DNA of 64,000 nucleotides from Maribacter sp. MMG018 (GTDB taxonomy: Bacteria > Bacteroidota > Bacteroidia > Flavobacteriales > Flavobacteriaceae). The stretch covers positions 1,054,001 through 1,118,000 of the forward strand of contig NZ_JAGJEC010000002.1 in NCBI RefSeq assembly GCF_018100785.1. Reading direction: 5' to 3'. The notes below the pieces were generated by a model, which ran no database searches, was not told the origin of the DNA, and saw only the letters and a program-made list of their open reading frames with translations. Positions 8,626-19,181 of the stretch are shown here, one piece after another. A program made the position numbers and the translations under genes. Numbering within the stretch: position 1 is the stretch's first letter; every line of letters starts with the position of its first letter.

Positions 8626-9522
8626 ATGAATTTTATTGATTATTATAAAGTACTGGGGTTAACAAAATCGGCAACCGAAAAGGAGATAAAATCCGCTTAC
8701 AGGAAACTTGCCAGAAAACACCATCCAGACCTAAACCCGAACAACAAGGTATCGGAAGAAAAGTTCAAACAAATAAACGAGGCCCACGAAGTATTGAGCG
8801 ACCCCGAAAAGCGTAAAAAATACGATCAATACGGAAAAGACTGGGAACATGCGGAGGAGTTTGAAAAAGCAAAGGCAAGAAGAAAGTCTAGCGGCAGTGG
8901 CTCTAGGCAATATACCTACAGTGGCGGCCAAGAAAGCGATTTCTCCGATTTCTTTGAATCAATGTTCGGTGGGGCCAGTGGTTTTGGAAGACAACAAGGA
9001 CAAGCAAGATTTAGAGGGCAGGATTTTAATGCAGAGCTAAGGTTAAATCTTACCGAAGTAATAGAAACGCATAAAAGGACACTTACCGTTAATGGTAAAA
9101 ATATCAGGATCACCATTCCTGCCGGTATAGAAGACGGACAAACGATCAAGATAAAAGGATATGGGGGCGAAGGCATCAACGGTGGTCCAAAAGGTGACCT
9201 CTATATTACTTTTTCAATAAATAACGACACTCCTTACAAAAGAGATGGTGCCAATCTATACAAGACTGTAGACATACCATTGACCAAGGCAGTTCTAGGA
9301 GGAGATATTATAGTTGAAACCCTAAATGGAAAAGTAAAACTTAAGGTAAAACCCGGAACCCAGAATGGCGCACAGGTAAAACTAAAAGGAAAGGGGTTTC
9401 CTATATACAAAAAGCACGGGCACGGAGACCTATACATTACCTATAAAGTTAAAATTCCCGCAATGCTTAACGATGAACAGGAAAAACTTTTTAGGCAATT
9501 GGAGCAAAGTGGATTAAATTAA
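8626..9522 (+). CDS. cbpA: CbpA-type DnaJ co-chaperone
   Basis: A 298-residue protein. The J domain (residues 1-70) contains the HPD tripeptide in [11 protein letters not shown] Gly/Phe/Ser-rich linker follows (about 88-130), and then two DnaJ C-terminal substrate-binding domains with [17 protein letters not shown] and [17 protein letters not shown]. The Cys-rich zinc finger of true DnaJ is absent, which identifies the CbpA class. It stimulates DnaK ATPase and holds unfolded clients in the cytoplasm. The modulator cbpM follows 8 bases later, forming the classical cbpA-cbpM pair. Confidence 0.93.
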
Positions 9523-9530
9523 TTAGAAAA

Positions 9531-9824
9531 ATGAAAACAGAGACCTATATCCGAATAGAACAAATATGTACGCACTACGGTGTAGAAACATCTTTTCTAC
9601 ATCAATTAAAGGAATTTGAAATCGTAAATATCGAAGAGTCCGAGAACATAGAGGTTATCAAGGATTCAGAATTGCCCAAGCTCGAAAAAATGGTAAGACT
9701 ACATCAAGAGCTTGAGATAAACCCACAAGGCCTACAAGCGATAGATCATCTGTTAAAAAAAGTGGTCGACCTACAGGAAGAAGTTATGACGCTTAGAAGA
9801 AAGCTGGACTTATTTGAGATGTAG
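9531..9824 (+). CDS. cbpM: CbpM chaperone modulator
   Basis: A 97-residue protein of MerR-like fold. It has a helix-turn-helix-like N-terminus (YIRIEQICTHYGVETSFLHQL) and a C-terminal amphipathic helix (VVDLQEEVMTLRRKL) typical of CbpM. In known systems it binds the J domain of CbpA and blocks its action on DnaK. The position directly behind cbpA supports the call. About 590 non-coding bases follow. Confidence 0.88.
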   Translation: MKTETYIRIEQICTHYGVETSFLHQLKEFEIVNIEESENIEVIKDSELPKLEKMVRLHQELEINPQGLQAIDHLLKKVVDLQEEVMTLRRKLDLFEM

Positions 9825-10163
9825 CGCTAAAGAAACACTATTCTTTTTTGTAAGATTAAAAGATAGTTCGCCAATTAAATTATATACTATTTTCCTATCT
9901 GTGACCAAGGTGCCGAATTTAAACACGAACAGTGTTTAGCCGTTACATATTCCCTATAAAAAAAGGACTGGCCAAAGATCGTTCACAAAAACAGCCTATC
10001 AAACAAGCATTCAATTAAGCACCCGTAAATCAACCATTTATACACCCTAGAATTTAGCTGTTTTCCTTTTTCAAATTCATCATATTCTATCCATTTCCTT
10101 TAAGTGAAAGTTGATTCTTACAAAATTTGTTTTCAACAATTAAACTATGCATTTCATCGATAA

Positions 10164-10180
10164 TCCATTGATATAATGGA
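10164..10180. promoter_or_regulatory. small perfect inverted repeat, candidate operator upstream of curlin gene
   Basis: TCCATT and AATGGA are separated by GATAT, a 6-bp dyad about 235 bases before the curlin start. The size fits a dimeric regulator site, but short dyads occur by chance in AT-rich DNA. Confidence 0.25.
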
Positions 10181-10342
10181 GATAAGATTTTAATATTGGG
10201 ACATACATAAAACTAAGGATTGTACTTTGGTTTTTAAACTTCTTCCCCCCCTGTGCAGATTACTACTGTACTACATAAATTTTAATGAACGAGGATTGTC
10301 TTAGCAGGTGCAGTAGCATCTTTTAAGGTTACGTGGATATAC

Positions 10343-10364
10343 TTTTTTTAGAAATCTAAAAAAA
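10343..10364. repeat. 10-bp perfect T/A-rich inverted repeat in csgA leader
   Basis: TTTTTTTAGA at 10343-10352 is the exact reverse complement of TCTAAAAAAA at 10355-10364, with two bases between. It lies 50 bases before the curlin ATG. In RNA the stem would be mostly A-U pairs with a minimal loop, so it is more likely a DNA-level operator or a weak leader structure than a terminator. Confidence 0.4.
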
Positions 10365-10414
10365 CAATAGAAAGGTATGTACTAATCTTTTAATCAATAA
10401 TTAATCTAAATTTT

Positions 10415-11437
10415 ATGAAAAAAGTAGTTTTAAGTGCCTTGGCACTAGCAATGGGATCTTTTGTCATGGCCCAGAACAAAAGTGAGATTACCCAAGAAAG
10501 GGCAACAGCGGCAGCCACTGTCAATGTAAATCAAGATGGAAGCGGCAATAGATCCACTGTTGAACAAATTGGTGTTGACGAACATGACACTACGGCTAGT
10601 AGTGTTAAAGTTAAACAACAAGGGAACGACAATAAATCTACTATAGACCAAGGGGATATTTGGGACAATGGTTCTACCGCTACTGGAGTTGCTACCGATG
10701 TATACCAAAACGGTAGGGAAAACAATTCTATAGTAAGTCAAGGGGGACGCTTAAATGTAGCCGATGTTGATCAAGTTGGAGATAAAAACCTATCTAAAAT
10801 AGATGTACAAGGAGGTTACAAAAACCGTATCAAAATAAAACAAAATGACGACAGTAATAAGTCTACCGTTTGGCAAAGCTGGTCATATAACGAGGTATTC
10901 GTAACACAATCCGGAGACAACGCTTATAACGGAGCCAATGTATCTGATGTAAACCAAACATCAACACACAGTTTGGTCGATATAGATCAGGTAGGTAGAA
11001 GAAATAACTCTATAGTTGACCAATACGGTGTAAACACTTCTGGATATGGAACAGATCTTTCCGCAACCGTTAGCCAAACTGGTAACGATAATAAGTCCGT
11101 AGTTACACAAACAGGAGTCTCAAACCTTGTTTCAGTTGTACAGAACGGTAACGACAACTACGCTTCATCTATACAAGATGGCGAGTCCAATCAAATGTAC
11201 ACCACACAACGTAATGGTAATGGCAACAGAAGTTATGCTTCCCAAAATATTACCACTACCAATAGTGTTATAAAAACAATACAACAAAACGGTAACAACA
11301 ATATTAGTAAAGCCTACCAACAATGCGCAACAGACGCTTTGATCTCGGTAACACAAAGTGGTAACGGAAACAATAGCATAGTTAACCAAACATTGGTAGA
11401 CAGCAATACAAGCGCTATTGTAACCCAAAGCAACTAA
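10415..11437 (+). CDS. csgA: major curlin (CsgA-like) amyloid subunit
   Basis: A 340-residue secreted protein. The signal peptide ends around FVMAQ. The rest consists of about 12 imperfect curlin repeats of roughly 20-25 residues with the pattern V.Q.G..N.S.V.Q, for example VNVNQDGSGNRSTVEQIG, VKVKQQGNDNKSTIDQ, ATVSQTGNDNKSVVTQTG and VSVVQNGNDNYASSIQDG. In curli, each repeat forms one strand-turn-strand rung of the extracellular beta-solenoid amyloid. E. coli CsgA has five repeats, so this subunit is much longer. One Cys occurs late (in AYQQCATD). It heads a six-gene run that includes all core secretion components. Confidence 0.93.
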   Translation: MKKVVLSALALAMGSFVMAQNKSEITQERATAAATVNVNQDGSGNRSTVEQIGVDEHDTTASSVKVKQQGNDNKSTIDQGDIWDNGSTATGVATDVYQNGRENNSIVSQGGRLNVADVDQVGDKNLSKIDVQGGYKNRIKIKQNDDSNKSTVWQSWSYNEVFVTQSGDNAYNGANVSDVNQTSTHSLVDIDQVGRRNNSIVDQYGVNTSGYGTDLSATVSQTGNDNKSVVTQTGVSNLVSVVQNGNDNYASSIQDGESNQMYTTQRNGNGNRSYASQNITTTNSVIKTIQQNGNNNISKAYQQCATDALISVTQSGNGNNSIVNQTLVDSNTSAIVTQSN

Positions 11438-11474
11438 AGATTAACCAATATCTATACTAATTGTAGTTCTTATA

Positions 11475-11510
11475 GGGTACGGGACATTTTAAATGTTCCG
11501 TATCCTTTTA
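11475..11510 (+). terminator. hairpin with T tail between csgA and csgB
   Basis: Left arm 11475-11487 (GGGTACGGGACAT) pairs with right arm 11493-11505 (ATGTTCCGTATCC), with two G-U pairs and a TTTTAAA-type loop region, followed by TTTT. It lies 38 bases after the csgA stop and 24 bases before the csgB start. It could act as a partial terminator inside the operon, or as an mRNA-stabilising 3' end for csgA. Confidence 0.7.
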
Positions 11511-11533
11511 AAAATTATAAAACAAAAGAATAC

Positions 11534-12052
11534 ATGAAATACCGATCGTTTCTCTTTTTGTTTATTCTTTTCAATATGTGTCTATACCAACTAAATGCCC
11601 AGGGTATTATAGATGGTAATACAGATAATGAAAACAGTTTGAACACCAGTGCGCAACAGCTAAATTATTTTATACAACAATTCAATGAAACCAACCAGAT
11701 AAACGTAGACAACACAGGTGTTTTTATCCATCAAATCGGAGACGGTAACACAAGTTCGATTACAACACAATCTCAAGTTACCGATGTTCAAGTGAACCAA
11801 TTAGGAAATGCCAATACCGTAGATCTAAATCTAAAAGCCGACGAAATCGACTATACGGTAACACAAAAAGGAAACAACAATCTCTTATTGGAACATAGTG
11901 CCCAAAGTGGAAAACAATTATTGCAAAGAACAATACAACAAAATGGCAATAACCAAAATCTTGTAATTCAAGGCAGAAACAGTATTGTCGATAAAATGAA
12001 GATTACGATGAATAATGGTAGTCAGAGTATTATCATTAGAAATACCAACTAA
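11534..12052 (+). CDS. csgB: second curlin, CsgB-like (candidate nucleator)
   Basis: A 172-residue secreted protein whose signal peptide ends LYQLNAQ. Curlin-type repeats follow: VFIHQIGDGNTSSITTQ, VQVNQLGNANTVDLNL, YTVTQKGNNNLLLEHS and RTIQQNGNNQNLVIQ, then a terminal segment KMKITMNNGSQSIIIR that departs from the consensus. Five or so rungs and a divergent last repeat resemble CsgB, the surface-bound nucleator in E. coli. Assignment as nucleator rather than minor subunit is by analogy. It is separated from csgA by a hairpin and followed closely by csgE. Confidence 0.82.
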   Translation: MKYRSFLFLFILFNMCLYQLNAQGIIDGNTDNENSLNTSAQQLNYFIQQFNETNQINVDNTGVFIHQIGDGNTSSITTQSQVTDVQVNQLGNANTVDLNLKADEIDYTVTQKGNNNLLLEHSAQSGKQLLQRTIQQNGNNQNLVIQGRNSIVDKMKITMNNGSQSIIIRNTN

Positions 12053-12069
12053 AGTCTTTTTTGATTACT

Positions 12070-12843
12070 ATGGGTATACGCCTTTATATTTCATTTTTCC
12101 TTGCGCTTTTTATGGGGGCAATAGCTGGTGCACAAAACTTTAACAAAGAGGTAGAGGCTAAAATAAATATAGACTCAAAAGGGGTACTTACCGACATTAT
12201 TTTCTCTGCCTACAACAAAACAAGTATAAAAAAGAGTTTAAGGTATAAAGCGTTGATAGTAAAAAACTCAAGTCCTACATCCTCTAAAGAACAATTTGAG
12301 GACGAACAATATTTTGTAATCGAAGCAGGCGAGCGCAAAAATATCAGTAAAACCACACTATCGTTAGAAAATAAAGAGAGAACCATAATTTTTGTTCTCT
12401 TATACGATGAAGATAAGGTTATAGGCAAAGACCGTGTCGTAATCAACGGCTTTGAAGGAGAGGATGCCATACAGCCTAAAGTGGTTCAAAAAGACAATCT
12501 AATAGAACCCGACAAAAGGGAGCAATCTCAGGACATAGATTTAATGAAGGGGCTTGTATTCGAAAACACAAAAACAAAACCTGGTCGAGATTTCTATCAA
12601 ATGTTTTACCTGGCTTACCAAAACAATAACATCAATGGAAACAAAATGGTCAAGGTCGATGAGGTATTAGCTATTGGAGGTAATACCCAAATTAAGATAT
12701 ACGCCGGCAATGAACTGGTGGTTCAGTTCTTTCTTAATCCACGAAGTTCATATATCAAGGAAATGGTAGATCAATCCATTTTAAGAATCAACCAATATTT
12801 CATTCACAATAGAGCTATTAGTCAAAATACTATTCAATATTAA
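12070..12843 (+). CDS. csgE: CsgE with N-terminal CsgH-like domain
   Basis: A 257-residue periplasmic protein from ATG 12070 (a TTG at 12061 would add three residues). The signal peptide ends GAIAGAQ. Residues of about 25-135 form a beta-rich module with YKALIVKNSSPTSSKEQF, FVIEAGERKNIS and IIFVLLYDEDK, which resembles the CsgC/CsgH anti-amyloid chaperone fold. A linker precedes the CsgE domain (about 165-250): GLVFENTKTKPGRDFYQMFY, then VVQFFLNPRSSYIKEMV. E. coli CsgE is only about 129 residues and caps the CsgG pore. The fusion joins two curli chaperone activities in one chain. It sits two bases before csgF. Confidence 0.85.
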   Translation: MGIRLYISFFLALFMGAIAGAQNFNKEVEAKINIDSKGVLTDIIFSAYNKTSIKKSLRYKALIVKNSSPTSSKEQFEDEQYFVIEAGERKNISKTTLSLENKERTIIFVLLYDEDKVIGKDRVVINGFEGEDAIQPKVVQKDNLIEPDKREQSQDIDLMKGLVFENTKTKPGRDFYQMFYLAYQNNNINGNKMVKVDEVLAIGGNTQIKIYAGNELVVQFFLNPRSSYIKEMVDQSILRINQYFIHNRAISQNTIQY

Positions 12844-12844
12844 C

Positions 12845-13237
12845 ATGAAACTACTAACCTTTTTATCATTTTTATTTACCATATCGGTATACTCGCAGCA
12901 ATTGGTTTATACTCCCAAAAACCCAAACTTTGGAGGAGAAACCTTTAATTACCAATGGTTGCTAAGTTCGGCACAGGCACAAAATTCTTTTACCGACAAC
13001 CAAGGTTCCAACGACCAACAGTCTGAACTTGAATATTTTCAAGAAAGTTTGAACAGTCAACTTTTAGGACAACTTACAAGGTCTGTTTACAACTCTGAAC
13101 TTGGTGATGGTCTAGAACCCGGTACTTTTAATGTTGGCGACCTACTGTTGGAAATTTTTGAATCTGGAGAAGGTTTGGTCGTTAATATTCTTGACACGAC
13201 CACTGGAGAGCAAACCCAAATCATAATTCCCAACTAA
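12845..13237 (+). CDS. csgF: CsgF curli assembly factor
   Basis: A 130-residue protein with a signal peptide ending SVYSQQ. The mature N-terminus holds the CsgF hallmark: NPNFGG, then LLSSAQAQNSF. In E. coli this N-terminal peptide inserts in the CsgG channel and forms a second constriction, while the rest links the pore to the nucleator at the surface. The C-terminus is polar and acidic. It is packed between csgE and csgG with gaps of 1 and 6 bases, so it is surely co-translated with them. Confidence 0.93.
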   Translation: MKLLTFLSFLFTISVYSQQLVYTPKNPNFGGETFNYQWLLSSAQAQNSFTDNQGSNDQQSELEYFQESLNSQLLGQLTRSVYNSELGDGLEPGTFNVGDLLLEIFESGEGLVVNILDTTTGEQTQIIIPN

Positions 13238-13243
13238 ACAAAT

Positions 13244-14635
13244 ATGAAACTTTACCGAAGTTCCCTCGTTTTAGGGCTCCTCTTACTGCTATCTGGTTGT
13301 GGCACCTATTTCAACCAACCCTTGGCCCCAACCGAGGCAAGAATAGGGGAAACCACGGCCAAGTCCTATTATCTAAAAAATCTACCCTTGCCCAAAGAAC
13401 CTATTGTTGTAGGCGTTTATAATTTTAAAGACCAAACAGGCCAGTATAAAAGCGTTGAAAATGCCAGCACGTTTAGTACTGCCGTACCACAAGGGGCGAC
13501 CACGATGCTTATAAAAGCTCTTGAAGATTCGAAATGGTTTACTCCTATCGAAAGAGAAAATTTATCCAATCTCTTGAACGAACGAAATATTATACGTTCT
13601 ACTCGCCAAGAATATACTGGAGACCAAAGCGGACAACCAAATCTACCTCCGTTGTTATATGCCGGTATTTTACTTGAAGGGGGGATAATTTCATACGACA
13701 CAAATATCATTACCGGCGGTTACGGCGCGCGCTATTTTGGTACTGGCGGTTCAACACAATATAGACAAGACCGTATAACCATATATCTTAGAGCGGTTTC
13801 TACTTCGAACGGAAAAATATTAAAGACAGTCTACGTGTCGAAGACCATACTATCGCAAGCACTGGATGCCAGCTTATTTAAATATGTAAAATTTCAACGT
13901 CTTTTAGAAGTCGAAACAGGTATCACCAAAAACGAACCTATACAATTGGCAATACAAAATGCCATAGAAAATGCTGTTGAATCATTGATAATAGAAGGCA
14001 TACAAGACAATCTGTGGAGCACCAATGAAGGTTCGGCAGTAAACGACTCTATTGTTTCTTTGTACAATCAAAGAAAACTGGAAGAGGAATCCACTCTTTT
14101 ATACAATAGAAAACAAGCCTCTCATGTACTAAAGAACAGTATAGGTATTTATGGGGGCAGCCCAGTACTAAATGCCGATTTTTCGAAGAAATCTCTGGGC
14201 GCCGGTGGAGGAATAAAATATAGCCGTTTCCTATCCCCTAAAATTGATATAGGCCTAAAAGGTGATTATTTCTACTTTACAGGCGGACAAAATTTCTATA
14301 AAGAATATATGTCCGGCAATATTCAATTGGGATATACCATTCTACCCTTTGATGATTTGACCCCGTATATCTATGGCGGTATAGGCGGTATTTTTGATTT
14401 ACGGTCACCAGACCCCTCGCTAACCGAAGATACCTCAGGCCTGAACCTGCAATATGGCCTGTCTTTAAAATATAATATCAACCCCAGACTCTCGCTTTTC
14501 GTAAACGCAGAAAACAACCACACTACCAGTGATGCCATAGACGATGTGGTAAACGGAAAAAGAGACGATTTCTATTATAATTTCTCCATTGGATTAGAAT
14601 GGAGATTTGGTAAAAACATGAATAAACGTAATTGA
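13244..14635 (+). CDS. csgG: CsgG curli secretion pore with extra C-terminal barrel-like domain
   Basis: A 463-residue outer-membrane lipoprotein (lipobox LSGC, Cys19). Residues 30 to about 285 align with E. coli CsgG: VGVYNFKDQTGQYK, FSTAVPQGATTML, NLLNERNIIR, GGYGARYFGTGGSTQYR and VSKTILSQALDASLFKYVKF (the transmembrane hairpins). CsgG forms the nonameric secretion channel. Unlike the 277-residue E. coli protein, about 178 further residues follow. They have alternating hydrophobic/aromatic strands and end in FSIGLEWRFGK, as in small OmpA/OmpW-like barrels. Of the eyelet residues Tyr51/Asn55/Phe56 of E. coli, only Phe seems kept. Confidence 0.93.
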   Translation: MKLYRSSLVLGLLLLLSGCGTYFNQPLAPTEARIGETTAKSYYLKNLPLPKEPIVVGVYNFKDQTGQYKSVENASTFSTAVPQGATTMLIKALEDSKWFTPIERENLSNLLNERNIIRSTRQEYTGDQSGQPNLPPLLYAGILLEGGIISYDTNIITGGYGARYFGTGGSTQYRQDRITIYLRAVSTSNGKILKTVYVSKTILSQALDASLFKYVKFQRLLEVETGITKNEPIQLAIQNAIENAVESLIIEGIQDNLWSTNEGSAVNDSIVSLYNQRKLEEESTLLYNRKQASHVLKNSIGIYGGSPVLNADFSKKSLGAGGGIKYSRFLSPKIDIGLKGDYFYFTGGQNFYKEYMSGNIQLGYTILPFDDLTPYIYGGIGGIFDLRSPDPSLTEDTSGLNLQYGLSLKYNINPRLSLFVNAENNHTTSDAIDDVVNGKRDDFYYNFSIGLEWRFGKNMNKRN

Positions 14636-14642
14636 AAATATA

Positions 14643-16175
14643 ATGAGCATTTTTAAGAATCAAAATTTTAAGGCAGTACTGCTTATAGTCTTCACATTAC
14701 TTGTATCATGCGAAGAGGATACCATAGGTGATGAAGCTTTTGGAACTTTGGAAGGAAAGGTAGTTTCCAATAGTTTCAACATCCCCTTAGAGAATGTAAA
14801 AATCACCACAAACCCTTCTTCTACTACTGTTTTTACGGATAAAGATGGAAATTTTATAATAGAGGATATAAGTATCGGAGACTATTCAGTACAAGCGGAT
14901 AAAGATGATTTTGAAACTTCTTTTGAGCCATCTACCATTTATAGCAATAAAACCACTACCGTGGTTTTTGAACTGGATAGCGTAGCCTCTAAAAATTTAC
15001 AACCGGCCATACCAACCCTAATTTCCCCACAAGACAAGGCAACGGACATTTCCAATCCGGTACAATTTGTGTGGTCTTCGTCCAAAAACGATTCCGACAC
15101 TATTACCTACACATTCGAATTAAGGGATGGCAATACTGGAGAAATTCAAATTTTTGAAAACTTACAAGATACCACTTTAACCATCGATAATTTATCCGTT
15201 GGTGCAAATTATTTTTGGCAGGTTACCGCTGATGACGCTATCACAGAGTCTACACAAAGTAAAATAAGCAGTTTCCAATTAAGAGGTATCGAAAACAATC
15301 GCTTTTTATATGTAAGAACACTCAATGGAAACAATGTCATCTTTTCTGGGGGTGAACCCGCTGGGTTAAATAATTCTGAGGTGGATCAAAACGAAATTCA
15401 ATTGACCTCTTCAGAATTAAATTGTTATAGACCCAAAGCTAACAGAACAGTGAATAAAATAGCTTATATAAGAAACCAAGGAGGTGAATCGCATTTATTT
15501 ACCATGAATTTGGACGGAAGCGGCAAAACACAATTGACCAAGAGTATTCCGATAGCAGGGTTTAGAAACGATGAAATTGAATTTGCTTGGTCTAACAATG
15601 GCAACGTTATCTACTACCCTAATTTCAATAGTTTATACGCCATAAACATTGATGGATCCGGGCTATCAAAAGTTTACGAAGCTCCTTCCGGAGAATTTAT
15701 TACAGAAGTGGCTACCAACCTGTCTAATAATTTAATCGCGATAAAGACTAACGATGCTGCCGGATACAATGTTAAGATACAGACAATAAACCCGGTCAGC
15801 AAGTCGGTTACAAGAACTATAATTGAAGGAATTCCGGGGGCTTTTGGAGGATTGGACTATTCTATAAACGGAAATAAAATATTATATACCAGAGATATTT
15901 CGGGAATAGAGAACACACAATACAGGCAACTGGACAGCCGTATTTTCGAATACGACATTGCAAATGACAATTCTATAGAGATAGATACCGATAAACCAAC
16001 AGGTTACAACAACCTTGATGTCAGTTACGCCCCCAATGAAGGTTATGTGATGTATATACTAACCTCCAATGATGGTATATCTGAAAAGAAAATTTACAGA
16101 AAGGAAATTAATACAAGTGATGATGCAGATCCAGAATTGTTGTTCACCAATGCTTTTATGCCCAATTGGGAATAA
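14643..16175 (+). CDS. large lipoprotein at the end of the curli operon (CarboxypepD_reg / Fn3-like / TolB-like)
   Basis: A 510-residue lipoprotein (lipobox LLVSCEED, Cys23). Residues of about 33-115 look like a CarboxypepD_reg beta-sandwich (GTLEGKVVSNSFNIPLENVK, TDKDGNFIIEDISIGDYSV). About 120-210 resemble an Fn3-like domain with PTLISPQDKATDISNPVQF and ANYFWQVTADD. The rest (about 225-505) has repeated blades like TolB/WD40 propellers (HLFTMNLDGSGKTQLTKS, NSLYAINIDGSGLSKVYE, NGNKILYTRD). It starts 7 bases after csgG, so it belongs to the operon. I know of no E. coli counterpart. A role in anchoring fibres or gating the pore is inference only. Confidence 0.8.
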   Translation: MSIFKNQNFKAVLLIVFTLLVSCEEDTIGDEAFGTLEGKVVSNSFNIPLENVKITTNPSSTTVFTDKDGNFIIEDISIGDYSVQADKDDFETSFEPSTIYSNKTTTVVFELDSVASKNLQPAIPTLISPQDKATDISNPVQFVWSSSKNDSDTITYTFELRDGNTGEIQIFENLQDTTLTIDNLSVGANYFWQVTADDAITESTQSKISSFQLRGIENNRFLYVRTLNGNNVIFSGGEPAGLNNSEVDQNEIQLTSSELNCYRPKANRTVNKIAYIRNQGGESHLFTMNLDGSGKTQLTKSIPIAGFRNDEIEFAWSNNGNVIYYPNFNSLYAINIDGSGLSKVYEAPSGEFITEVATNLSNNLIAIKTNDAAGYNVKIQTINPVSKSVTRTIIEGIPGAFGGLDYSINGNKILYTRDISGIENTQYRQLDSRIFEYDIANDNSIEIDTDKPTGYNNLDVSYAPNEGYVMYILTSNDGISEKKIYRKEINTSDDADPELLFTNAFMPNWE

Positions 16176-16321
16176 CAATTATTAGGTTCGAACCCAGAAG
16201 CTTTCTTTTACTTGAGGTTTATTTTTAAAGAGTTTAAAATATTGTTCCAATATATAAAAAACATATAACACACTACCTGTAGTTAATTTGCTCACTAGTT
16301 CATGGTTAGCGCTCAAAATCG

Positions 16322-16329
16322 TAGTTTTG
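16322..16329 (+). promoter_or_regulatory. -7 element for uvrA
   Basis: TAGTTTTG matches the Bacteroidota -7 consensus TAnnTTTG and ends 17 bases before the uvrA ATG. No good TTG box at the usual upstream distance was found, so this is a partial match. Confidence 0.4.
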
Positions 16330-16346
16330 CAACTTTGCTATGATTC

Positions 16347-19181
16347 ATGATCGATTACGAAGAAAATATTGAGGTTCAAGGTGCCCGTGTACATAACCTT
16401 AAAAATATAGATGTTACCATACCTAGGGAAAAACTCGTCGTTATTACGGGGCTTTCCGGGAGCGGAAAATCCTCATTGGCATTTGACACTATATATGCCG
16501 AGGGCCAAAGGCGGTATATCGAAACATTTTCCGCCTATGCCAGACAGTTTTTGGGAGGCTTGGAAAGACCCGATGTGGATAAGATAGACGGTCTTTCCCC
16601 TGTAATTGCCATTGAGCAAAAAACGACCTCTAAATCTCCGAGATCTACCGTTGGTACCATAACAGAGGTTTATGACTTTCTTCGTCTTTTATATGCCCGT
16701 GCCGGTGACGCACATAGTTACAATACCGGGGAAAAAATGGTCAGTTATAGTGATGATCAAATAAAAAAACTGATCATCGATTCTTATAGAGATAAGAAAA
16801 TTAATATACTGGCACCGATTATAAAGGCTAGAAAAGGACACTATAGAGAGCTTTTTGAACAAATTGCCAAGCAAGGTTTTGTTAAGGTAAGGGTAGACGG
16901 AGAAATCAAAGACCTTGTAAAAGGGATGAAGGTAGACCGTTACAAGACCCATGATATAGAGATTGTCATAGATCGCCTAAAAGTGGTAGAAAACGACGAT
17001 TTGCACAAGCGCCTTTCAGAAACAATAAATACCGCTATGTATAGTGGTGACAATGTGTTAATGGTCTTGGAAGAAGGTACCGAAGATCCACGTTATTTTA
17101 GTAGGGACCTTATGTGCCCGACAACGGGTATCTCGTACCCCACACCAGAGCCAAACACATTCTCGTTCAACTCCCCAAAAGGTATGTGCCCACATTGTAG
17201 TGGTCTTGGGCATGTATATGAAGTAAACGAGAATAAAATTTTTCCGAATAGAAAACTATCGATAAAAAGCGGAGGTATCGCCCCTCTTGGAGAATACAAA
17301 AAATCATGGGCTTTTAAACAGATCGAGATAATTGCACATCGCTATAATTTTGAACTTACAGATCCCATTAATAAAATACCACAACAGGCTCTAGAGGTTA
17401 TATTGAACGGCAGCAATGAAAGTTTTGAGGTAGACTCTAAATCGCTTGGTGTAAAAAGAACCTATAAAATCGACTACGAAGGCATTTCAAACTTTATAAA
17501 GAGCCAATACGAAGAAGCCGAATCTACTTCTATAAAACGATGGGCAAAGGAATACATGGACAAAACAAGTTGTTCATCGTGCGGTGGTAGTCGCTTAAGA
17601 AAAGAATCCCTTTATTTTAAAATAGACGATAAAAATATTGCCGAGCTCGCAAACATGGATATTGCGGAATTGGCGGACTTTTTTAAAGGGTTGGAAAAAA
17701 AACTAGAAGGCAATCAATTAAAGATTGCCGAAGAGATCATTAAAGAAATCAAAACCAGAATTCAATTCCTTCTAGATGTAGGTCTAGATTACCTTTCGTT
17801 AAACCGTAGCTCCAAATCACTGTCAGGTGGCGAAGCTCAGAGAATTAGGTTGGCCACGCAGATTGGATCGCAATTGGTAGGTGTGCTTTATATATTGGAT
17901 GAACCCAGCATTGGCCTTCATCAGAGAGACAATAGTCGATTAATAAAATCTCTAGAAGCCCTAAGGGACATTGGTAATTCCGTTATTGTGGTAGAGCATG
18001 ACCGCGATATGATAGAGCGTGCCGACCATGTAATAGATATTGGCCCCAAAGCGGGGAAACATGGTGGCGAAATAATTTCGCAAGGAACCCCCTACGAACT
18101 TAAAAACCACCATACCCTTACAGCGGATTATATTACCGGGGTAAAAGAAATAAAAGTACCGGAGACCAGGAGAAAAGGGAACGGAAAAAAAATTGTACTG
18201 TCCGGTTGCACGGGCAACAACCTAAAAAACATAACAGTAGAATTCCCTCTTGGTAAAATGATCGGGGTAACGGGCGTTTCCGGAAGCGGAAAATCTACCC
18301 TCATAAACGAGACGTTATACCCTATCATGAACGCTCATTATTTTAATGGCGTAAAAAAACCGATGCCCTATAAAAAAATCAATGGACTGGAACATATTGA
18401 TAAGGTCATAGATATAAACCAATCTCCCATAGGCAGAACTCCCCGGTCGAATCCTGCTACCTATACGGGTGTTTTTAGCGAAATACGTTCGTTATTCGCC
18501 AAAACCCCAGAAGCTTCCATAAGAGGGTATAAACCCGGAAGGTTCAGTTTTAATGTAAAGGGAGGGCGCTGTGAAACATGTCAAGGCGGAGGCCTGCGTG
18601 TTATTGAAATGAACTTTTTGCCCGATGTTTTTGTAGAATGCGAAACATGCAATGGAAAACGTTTTAATAGGGAAACCCTTGAAATACGCTATAAGGGAAA
18701 ATCTATTTCGGACGTGCTTGAAATGACAATCAATGAAGCCGTGGATTTTTTTGAGCTTATTCCAAAAATCCATCGTAAATTAAAAACGATACAAGATGTT
18801 GGCCTAGGTTATATATCTTTAGGGCAACAATCCACTACCCTATCGGGTGGCGAGGCCCAACGTATCAAATTGGCTACGGAACTATCCAAGAGAGATACGG
18901 GGAACACCTTCTATATATTGGACGAACCCACCACCGGTCTTCATTTTGAAGATATTAGGGTATTAATGGAGGTGCTCAACAAATTAGTCGATAAGGGAAA
19001 TACCGTATTGGTAATAGAACATAATTTGGACGTTATTAAAATGGTAGACCATGTTATTGATATTGGATATGAAGGCGGACGATCTGGAGGTCAATTAGTA
19101 GCATCCGGTACACCGGAAGAAATTTGTAAAGTAAAAAAAAGCTATACGGCAGAGTTTTTGAAGAAAGAATTAAAAATGTGA
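16347..19181 (+). CDS. uvrA: UvrA, excision nuclease subunit A
   Basis: A 944-residue protein, close to E. coli UvrA (940). There are two ABC ATPase modules: Walker [21 protein letters not shown] with signature [14 protein letters not shown], and [13 protein letters not shown] with [15 protein letters not shown]. Zinc-ribbon cysteines appear at [14 protein letters not shown] and the pair [15 protein letters not shown]. UvrA scans DNA for bulky lesions, loads UvrB and then leaves. It starts at ATG 16347 behind a -7 element. The LOG gene follows after 7 bases and may be co-transcribed. Confidence 0.97.

Follow-up and report, generated by a model that had tools for sequence, protein, structure and literature searches.

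The biogenesis of curli, the amyloid fibres of the type VIII secretion system, is known mainly from Escherichia coli and Salmonella. In E. coli, CsgF acts on the outer side of CsgG, and anchoring of the nucleator CsgB depends on it; CsgB requires both its last repeats and CsgF in order to stay on the outer membrane (PMC10133297, PMC4551309). Curli are also recorded in Bacteroidetes, with csgH as an extra gene of the Alphaproteobacteria (Dueholm et al. 2012; PMC3521004), and sub-families of CsgH are already known in Bacteroidetes (PMC4838910). Here we describe a lipoprotein gene in the curli cluster of Maribacter sp. MMG018. The window, by which is meant the whole stretch of DNA that was analysed, comprises 64,000 nucleotides of contig NZ_JAGJEC010000002.1 (positions 1,054,001 to 1,118,000), and the gene is found at 14643-16175 on its + strand.

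The lipoprotein is a dedicated member of the curli system of the Bacteroidota. Its open reading frame (ORF) starts 7 nt after csgG, which ends at 14635, and is the last of the curli cluster, as an earlier note on this DNA had recorded. That note had also singled the gene out as the best candidate in the window for an undescribed system component, and no earlier description of the protein seems to exist: the main text of Dueholm et al., as excerpted, mentions no such lipoprotein (PMC3521004), and literature searches, mainly of open-licence papers seen in excerpt, returned no description of it. Its absence from enterobacterial csg operons, likewise claimed, holds for E. coli K-12 MG1655, the single genome compared, where csgG encodes 277 aa and is followed on that side by ycdZ, which lies on the opposite strand, and where no lipoprotein gene is found beside csg. 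Annotators have named the relatives either "carboxypeptidase regulatory-like domain-containing protein" or "carboxypeptidase-like regulatory domain-containing protein". Beyond the earlier claims are the export signal of the lipoprotein, its link to curlin and CsgH-like genes outside the Flavobacteriales, and an extra barrel on CsgG. The reading that we favour, and to which we give an even chance of being correct, is that the lipoprotein acts as a surface dock on the CsgG barrel that captures the minor curlin, with the fibres nucleating and anchoring on the producing cell.

The evidence for a dedicated component comes from presence and absence. In a family sample of 299 genomes, CsgG matches of E < 1e-40 were counted as strong and lipoprotein matches were accepted at E < 1e-30, and in a phylum sample of 395 genomes strong CsgF was set at E < 1e-25; 12 genomes with weaker CsgG and 9 with weaker CsgF were treated as not having true curli. 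Strong CsgG is found in 68 family genomes, every one of which (68/68) has the lipoprotein, and 230 of the 231 other genomes lack both. The sole exception, G263, has the lipoprotein without a csgG match, and there a 204-aa csgG remnant lies directly upstream (locus L277). Across the 67 family loci that were fetched, which hold 68 units, the lipoprotein is full length with identities of 39-67%. Conservation beside csgG, on which the earlier note had let its proposal depend, is seen in all 68 units, with the gene directly 3' of csgG on the same strand, and the window adds one more; in the reverse search, csgG stands directly upstream in 80/80 named loci found through the lipoprotein, these being the best 80 of 284 relatives. 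The nearest named relative among the matches listed is from Maribacter thermophilus, at 94% identity, and curli are patchy within the genus, of which the two other sampled genomes have neither csgG nor the lipoprotein. Culturable marine flavobacteria with the gene include Leeuwenhoekiella blandensis and Gillisia limnaea. One locus (L031) has two csg units in one genome, each with its own lipoprotein and with csgE seen in one of them, and in another (L198) a second csg unit begins.

At the level of the phylum, strong CsgF occurs in 41 of the 395 genomes, of which 24 have the full-length lipoprotein and 17 a shorter form (127-272 aa as called) that is based on the transthyretin-like CarboxypepD_reg domain (CRD) and has no propeller. 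The full-length form is found in 0/354 genomes without strong CsgF. The lipoprotein lies no more than 10 kb from csg on the same strand in 39/41 CsgF-positive genomes, nine of them judged by coordinates only, and in G411 it is on a contig other than that of csg. The weakest short form, in G338 (E 3e-11), scores no better than CRD matches from genomes without csg and was counted because its gene follows the curlins. Chance adjacency is ruled out by this distribution in family and phylum. In seven f18 genomes CsgF is matched very weakly (E 1.9e-6 to 4.3e-4), which perhaps reflects a distant curli-like system.

That the lipoprotein is a functionally unrelated surface protein which merely shares the gene cluster is scarcely credible. 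The case for it is that the gene further downstream, read as purM-like from its sequence alone, is also of one family in 50/66 family units, which shows that a position can be conserved by itself and makes position alone the weaker evidence. Set against this, presence and absence of the lipoprotein track csg almost perfectly, and the linkage is kept in the 16/66 units with a different downstream gene and on plasmids. The window is a further case, its next gene, 171 nt after the lipoprotein, being read as uvrA on the same kind of evidence. Seven plasmid records were matched and five were opened (Hymenobacter 2, Spirosoma 2, Salinibacter 1); all five hold csgF, csgG and the lipoprotein, with csgE annotated on four. 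Shared synteny as the sole cause is countered by these same three observations. Transposase or recombinase genes are near some of the plasmid curli loci (L278, L279, L280, L281, L283), and on the Salinibacter plasmid the annotation names csgH beside the lipoprotein gene.

The gene, from an ATG start, encodes 510 aa, all of its features lying on the + strand. A signal peptide with a lipobox occupies residues 1-22 (14643-14708), with a helix over residues 7-21 in the structural model, and is followed by the lipid cysteine, Cys23, and the residues E-E-D at 24-26 (14709-14720); the cysteine is invariant across the homologue alignment. The CRD, common to the full and short forms, spans residues 33-111 (14739-14975), an Fn3-like domain residues 120-213 (15000-15281), and a six-bladed TolB-type beta-propeller residues 219-510 (15297-16172). 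These are the three folds that the earlier note had proposed, and its observation holds. CarboxypepD_reg (PF13620) matches residues 35-111 with 39.9 bits against a cut-off of 32.3. The AlphaFold2 (AF2) model, made with 80 homologues as input (predicted local distance difference test, pLDDT, 89.8; predicted TM-score, pTM, 0.71), has strand-rich regions at 33-111 and 125-213 and a third at 221-510, which aligns with the TolB propeller (1crz) at Z 26.1 and a root mean square deviation of 2.7 over 254 residues at 16% identity; the count of six blades follows strand order and this alignment. The Fn3 part fell below the gathering cut-off in the protein itself (PF00041, 18.0 against 25 bits) and is supported through a short homologue, L238, which exceeds that cut-off (26.1 against 25). 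PD40 is likewise below cut-off in the window protein (16.3 against 20.9 bits), and the full-length TolB model TIGR02800 is not reached (17.7 against 343.15). Pfam and NCBIfam searches gave no catalytic or enzyme domain in the lipoprotein; an enzyme identity suggested by a Dpp5 match was rejected, the match having 27.3 of 900 bits and covering the propeller part alone. Neither OmpA_C nor TPR gave a Pfam match up to E 1, and Pfam contains no known carbohydrate-binding domain that matches the curli form. Sequence searches of the PDB returned single-domain matches only, and a viral structure library generic propeller and Fn3 matches only.

The residues that follow the lipid cysteine predict that the lipoprotein faces the outside of the outer membrane. 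In SusD proteins of Flavobacterium johnsoniae, the published consensus for export to the surface reads SDDFE, and acidic residues preceded by a polar or basic one are required for export (PMC5080379). Judged by that consensus, a motif like the lipoprotein export signal (LES), polar then acidic, is present in the family lipoproteins. Their pattern is C-S-E-D/E, and 68/68 family units fit C-[SNETKDG]-[EDN]-[EDN]. Among the named homologues (best 80 of 284), an acid is found at Cys+2 in 80/80 and at Cys+3 in 77/80, and at least two acids occur within Cys+1 to +4 in 77/80 as against 5/20 other lipobox ORFs of the same loci; in this small and crude control, Cys+2 and Cys+3 are both acidic in 1/20. 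CsgG of the same 80 loci reads mostly C-G-A/T-Y-F-N-Q-P, with an acid at Cys+1 to +3 in 0/80. Outside the Flavobacteriales, five of 18 N-termini have at least two acids within Cys+1 to +4, and those with a single one often read C-S/A-K-E/D-T.

This weakness of the motif in most non-flavobacterial forms is one of two points for a lipoprotein that instead faces the periplasm and links the pore to peptidoglycan, as proposed for PorE/PG1058, the other being that PG1058 also joins a TolB-like propeller to a CRD (PMC5053529). We think such an arrangement very improbable, as no OmpA_C or TPR domain is present and the family has the acidic, export-like motif. Of the functions offered by the earlier note, recognition of peptidoglycan is disfavoured on the same grounds, and fibre anchoring fits best, with carbohydrate binding and gating of the pore as less probable candidates.

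A surface location would also suit a matrix adaptor, in which the Fn3 part and propeller bind surface polysaccharide and thereby tie curli to capsule, exopolysaccharide or lipopolysaccharide. A CsgF-negative relative, L269, which shares the CRD and Fn3-like parts, does carry a concanavalin-like domain (Laminin_G_3, 101.5 bits in Pfam). We nevertheless regard this explanation as unlikely, since the curli form has no known carbohydrate-binding domain and an adaptor of this kind would be expected outside curli too, yet the full form was not found in the 354 sampled phylum genomes without strong CsgF. The relative just mentioned belongs to a group of lipoproteins of around 430 aa (L269-L276) that have the same CRD and Fn3-like start and come from CsgF-negative genomes (G500, G485, G450, G446, G402, G673). 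By eye, L270, L271, L273, L274 and L276 resemble L269, and no csg genes were found in the loci of these relatives.

The partner proposed for the lipoprotein is an extension of CsgG. The csgG gene of the window (13244-14635, + strand; CsgG 222 bits) encodes 463 aa, against 277 aa in E. coli, and its C-terminal part matches OMP_b-brl with 31.4 bits, over the cut-off. The AF2 model of this protein, whose overall pLDDT is only 71.6, places eight strands, mostly at high confidence, within residues 294-460 (approximately 14123-14623). With Foldseek, this barrel matches OmpA and NspA, and the core matches CsgG structures (4uv2) at 36-44% identity. The barrel was modelled for the window protein only, and elsewhere the length of CsgG was measured: it is 449-564 aa in all measured csgG loci, except L069, which is cut by a contig end, and the relic in L277.

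The barrel and the lipoprotein diverge in step. The main test took the 47 of 67 loci having all of the genes and removed the divergence of the purM-like gene and of the CsgG core. The remaining correlation between barrel and lipoprotein is 0.32 (bootstrap 0.14-0.47; reached in 0/2000 permutations), and the barrel does not track csgB (-0.06), csgE (-0.18) or csgF (-0.05). In a second set of 18 loci, in which csgG and the lipoprotein gene are not adjacent and only the CsgG core was removed, the CRD and the barrel correlate at 0.47 (0/2000 permutations), with further values of 0.13 for CRD and csgE and 0.07 for barrel and csgF. These values point to a physical contact as a lead and not as proof, because relatedness inflates the figures.

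Co-divergence with the barrel would also be expected of two other roles. In one, the lipoprotein is an assembly or stabilising factor for barrel-bearing CsgG that makes no contact with the fibre, and indeed the 32 genomes measured among the 41 CsgF-bearing ones of the phylum all combine a CsgG of at least 450 aa with the lipoprotein. In the other, the propeller closes off CsgG-CsgF at its outer mouth and controls release, as BtuG does on BtuB, where the surface propeller lipoprotein forms a pedal-bin lid (PMC10404256); the position of the gene directly after csgG in the family agrees with such a lid. Evidence on both comes from gene order outside the Flavobacteriales. Flavobacteriales clusters run from the curlins through a short CsgB-like curlin, csgE, csgF and csgG to the lipoprotein. 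In other groups a frequent arrangement is csgE, csgF, csgG and curlins, then a short curlin of approximately 170-200 aa, an optional CsgH-like gene and finally the lipoprotein. Over 30 non-Flavobacteriales loci (25 genome loci and the 5 plasmids), the ORF directly upstream of the lipoprotein is csgG in 7, a curlin in 16, a CsgH-like gene in 5 and something else in 2; the curlins include L243, with weak repeats, and L246, of 271 aa, and the two others are L249 and L253, the latter having a 148-aa ORF between the CsgH-like gene and the lipoprotein. In G499, where csgEFG lie about 177 kb from the curlin cluster, the lipoprotein stays beside the curlins. This arrangement, together with the curlin or CsgH-like neighbours in 21/30 loci, speaks for a function at the end of the fibre. 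The same 21 loci speak against a factor devoted to CsgG, which we judge quite unlikely. A lid is also unlikely in our estimate, in view of G499 and of the 17/41 CsgF-bearing genomes whose short forms have no propeller of their own with which to form one.

The remainder of the cluster, also on the + strand, follows the order csgA-B-E-F-G in this flavobacterial host, with intergenic gaps of 96, 8, 1, 6 and 7 nt, by listed starts, from csgA to the lipoprotein gene. The csgA-like gene (10415-11437) encodes a major curlin of 340 aa with eight stretches of Curlin_rpt (89.9 bits). The csgB-like gene (11534-12052) encodes a minor curlin of 172 aa that gives no Curlin_rpt match in Pfam; it is so named because of its position and a match to the NCBIfam CsgA model that is below cut-off (E 7e-4), and its position, length and C-terminal tail, ..SQSIIIRNTN, are as in the family. 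Such CsgB-like proteins of the family mostly have a hydrophobic and often arginine-bearing tail, for instance ..SIIIRNFN, and many CsgA-like proteins end in ..TVTQSN. The tail of the short curlins is a candidate docking or nucleation strand. The genes csgE (12061-12843, with a likely ATG start at 12070; 41.2 bits to Pfam CsgE at residues 162-252) and csgF (12845-13237; 120.7 bits to Pfam CsgF) complete the set, and CsgE, CsgF, CsgG and the curlin repeats of csgA are all over their Pfam cut-offs.

The csgE product appears to be a fusion, in which a CsgH-like domain (approximately 12148-12495) precedes the CsgE domain (12544-12816). The N-terminus of this CsgE alone gives no match to Pfam CsgH, and its label comes from its profile, which matches stand-alone CsgH-like relatives that themselves match CsgH. 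Among those stand-alone relatives, L261 is over the Pfam cut-off. In eight Flavobacterium loci (L205, L206, L209, L213, L216, L217, L225, L234) the CsgH-like part is a separate gene. The excerpted text of the report on CsgH sub-families does not mention a CsgH-CsgE fusion (PMC4838910).

Between csgA and csgB lies a terminator-like hairpin, perhaps an attenuator (11462-11520, + strand; -24.9 kcal/mol, z -7.65), and a similar hairpin with a T tract is found between these genes in 55/61 family loci, counted without a shuffle control. An excess of csgA transcripts may be kept up by it. The earlier note had also let its proposal depend on the lipoprotein gene not having a promoter of its own with unrelated regulation. 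For promoters, we took TTG-N17-23-TANNTTTG to be the flavobacterial-type motif, and found none in 9800-16400, either in the 7-nt gap between csgG and the lipoprotein gene or upstream of csgA. The missing sites say little, because none was found upstream of csgA either, although a promoter must be located there. Sigma-70-like sites are no commoner than in shuffled sequence (24 against 22.8), and one such chance-level match, at 14632-14660, spans the gap between csgG and the lipoprotein gene. Outside the cluster, the regular-expression scan found a TANNTTTG box at 16322-16329 (+ strand), 5' of the uvrA-like gene, lacking a -33 partner within the spacing that was scanned. A DnaJ-like gene and then a small gene of 97 aa lie at 8626-9824, before the curli genes, and the pair resembles CbpA-CbpM.

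In the favoured reading, that of a surface dock, the lipoprotein would be lipidated at Cys23 and moved across to the external face of the outer membrane by virtue of the acidic residues that follow the cysteine. Its place would be next to the pore formed by CsgG and CsgF, where the additional C-terminal barrel of CsgG would hold it. It has no recognisable catalytic domain and would receive the CsgB-like minor curlin as the latter emerges. Amyloid growth would thereby start on the producing cell and remain fixed there. A bolder version, which we offer tentatively and consider somewhat improbable, is that of a second extracellular ring, in which each CsgG barrel would hold one lipoprotein, with up to nine forming a crown whose CRDs template or clamp the minor curlin, such that the amyloid is born attached. 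If true, the crown would be an amyloid anchor of a class that E. coli is not known to have.

Several observations weigh against the dock. Co-transcription is something that we infer, the promoter scan being empty upstream of csgA as well and the hairpin parting csgA from the remaining csg genes. CsgF, the anchor of CsgB in E. coli, is also present here (PMC10133297, PMC4551309). The short forms are without the propeller, which cannot then be essential to a shared role; as these forms are CRD-based, the CRD would be the common core, with the propeller an addition or a loss. The export motif weakens outside the Flavobacteriales, where 13/18 N-termini have one acid in Cys+1 to +4. In the 47 loci, after the same removal of purM-like and CsgG-core divergence, lipoprotein and csgB do not correlate (0.05, interval -0.09 to 0.18), which gives no support for a direct contact with CsgB in the Flavobacteriaceae, and in the 18 non-adjacent loci the barrel also correlates with csgE (0.34; 7/2000) and the CRD with csgF (0.27; 38/2000), in tests that relatedness inflates. 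The conserved gene beyond the lipoprotein in 50/66 units counts here as well.

If the phylum, which is common in marine, soil and gut communities, has one more conserved subunit at the surface, the list of parts known from E. coli would not hold generally. Together with the CsgG barrel and the fusion of CsgH-like and CsgE parts, this subunit makes the question of how curli stay on the producing cell testable in a second and very different lineage. A commercial nanopore is based on CsgG, so natural variants of this protein that have extra barrels and a partner at the surface are also of practical interest.

Several described proteins resemble the lipoprotein in part. The role proposed for it is of the same kind as that of CsgF, the anchoring of fibres at the outer face of CsgG; CsgF, however, is small and is present here besides, whereas the lipoprotein is lipidated, has around 500 aa in its full form and is built of other domains. 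In the Armatimonadetes, a secreted protein with four CarboxypepD_reg domains is encoded in a CsgG-like cluster, and its authors propose amyloid, pointing out that domains of this class tend to form it (PMC4737851). It shares with the curli lipoprotein a CRD and a link to a CsgG-like gene cluster, but it has four CRDs, a subtilase nearby and a different phylum, and the excerpted text makes no mention of CsgE or CsgF. The likeness to TolB lies in the six-bladed propeller fold, yet TolB does not share the lipid anchor or the CRD and Fn3-like parts that stand in front of the propeller in the curli protein. BtuG, also of the Bacteroidota, is a surface propeller lipoprotein on an outer-membrane channel; it has seven blades, binds cobalamin and partners a TonB-dependent transporter, in contrast to the six blades and csgG neighbour of the curli lipoprotein. 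PorE/PG1058 of type IX secretion is again an outer-membrane lipoprotein of the Bacteroidota in which a propeller and a CRD serve a secretion machine. In PG1058, the propeller is accompanied by a TPR and followed by the CRD, with OmpA_C and a periplasmic site, whereas the curli lipoprotein has its CRD in front of the propeller, contains neither TPR nor OmpA_C and bears an export-like motif that indicates an outward-facing protein. The curli system itself is a known one, of which the Bacteroidota version is a variant by reason of the lipoprotein, the barrel on CsgG and the fusion in CsgE.

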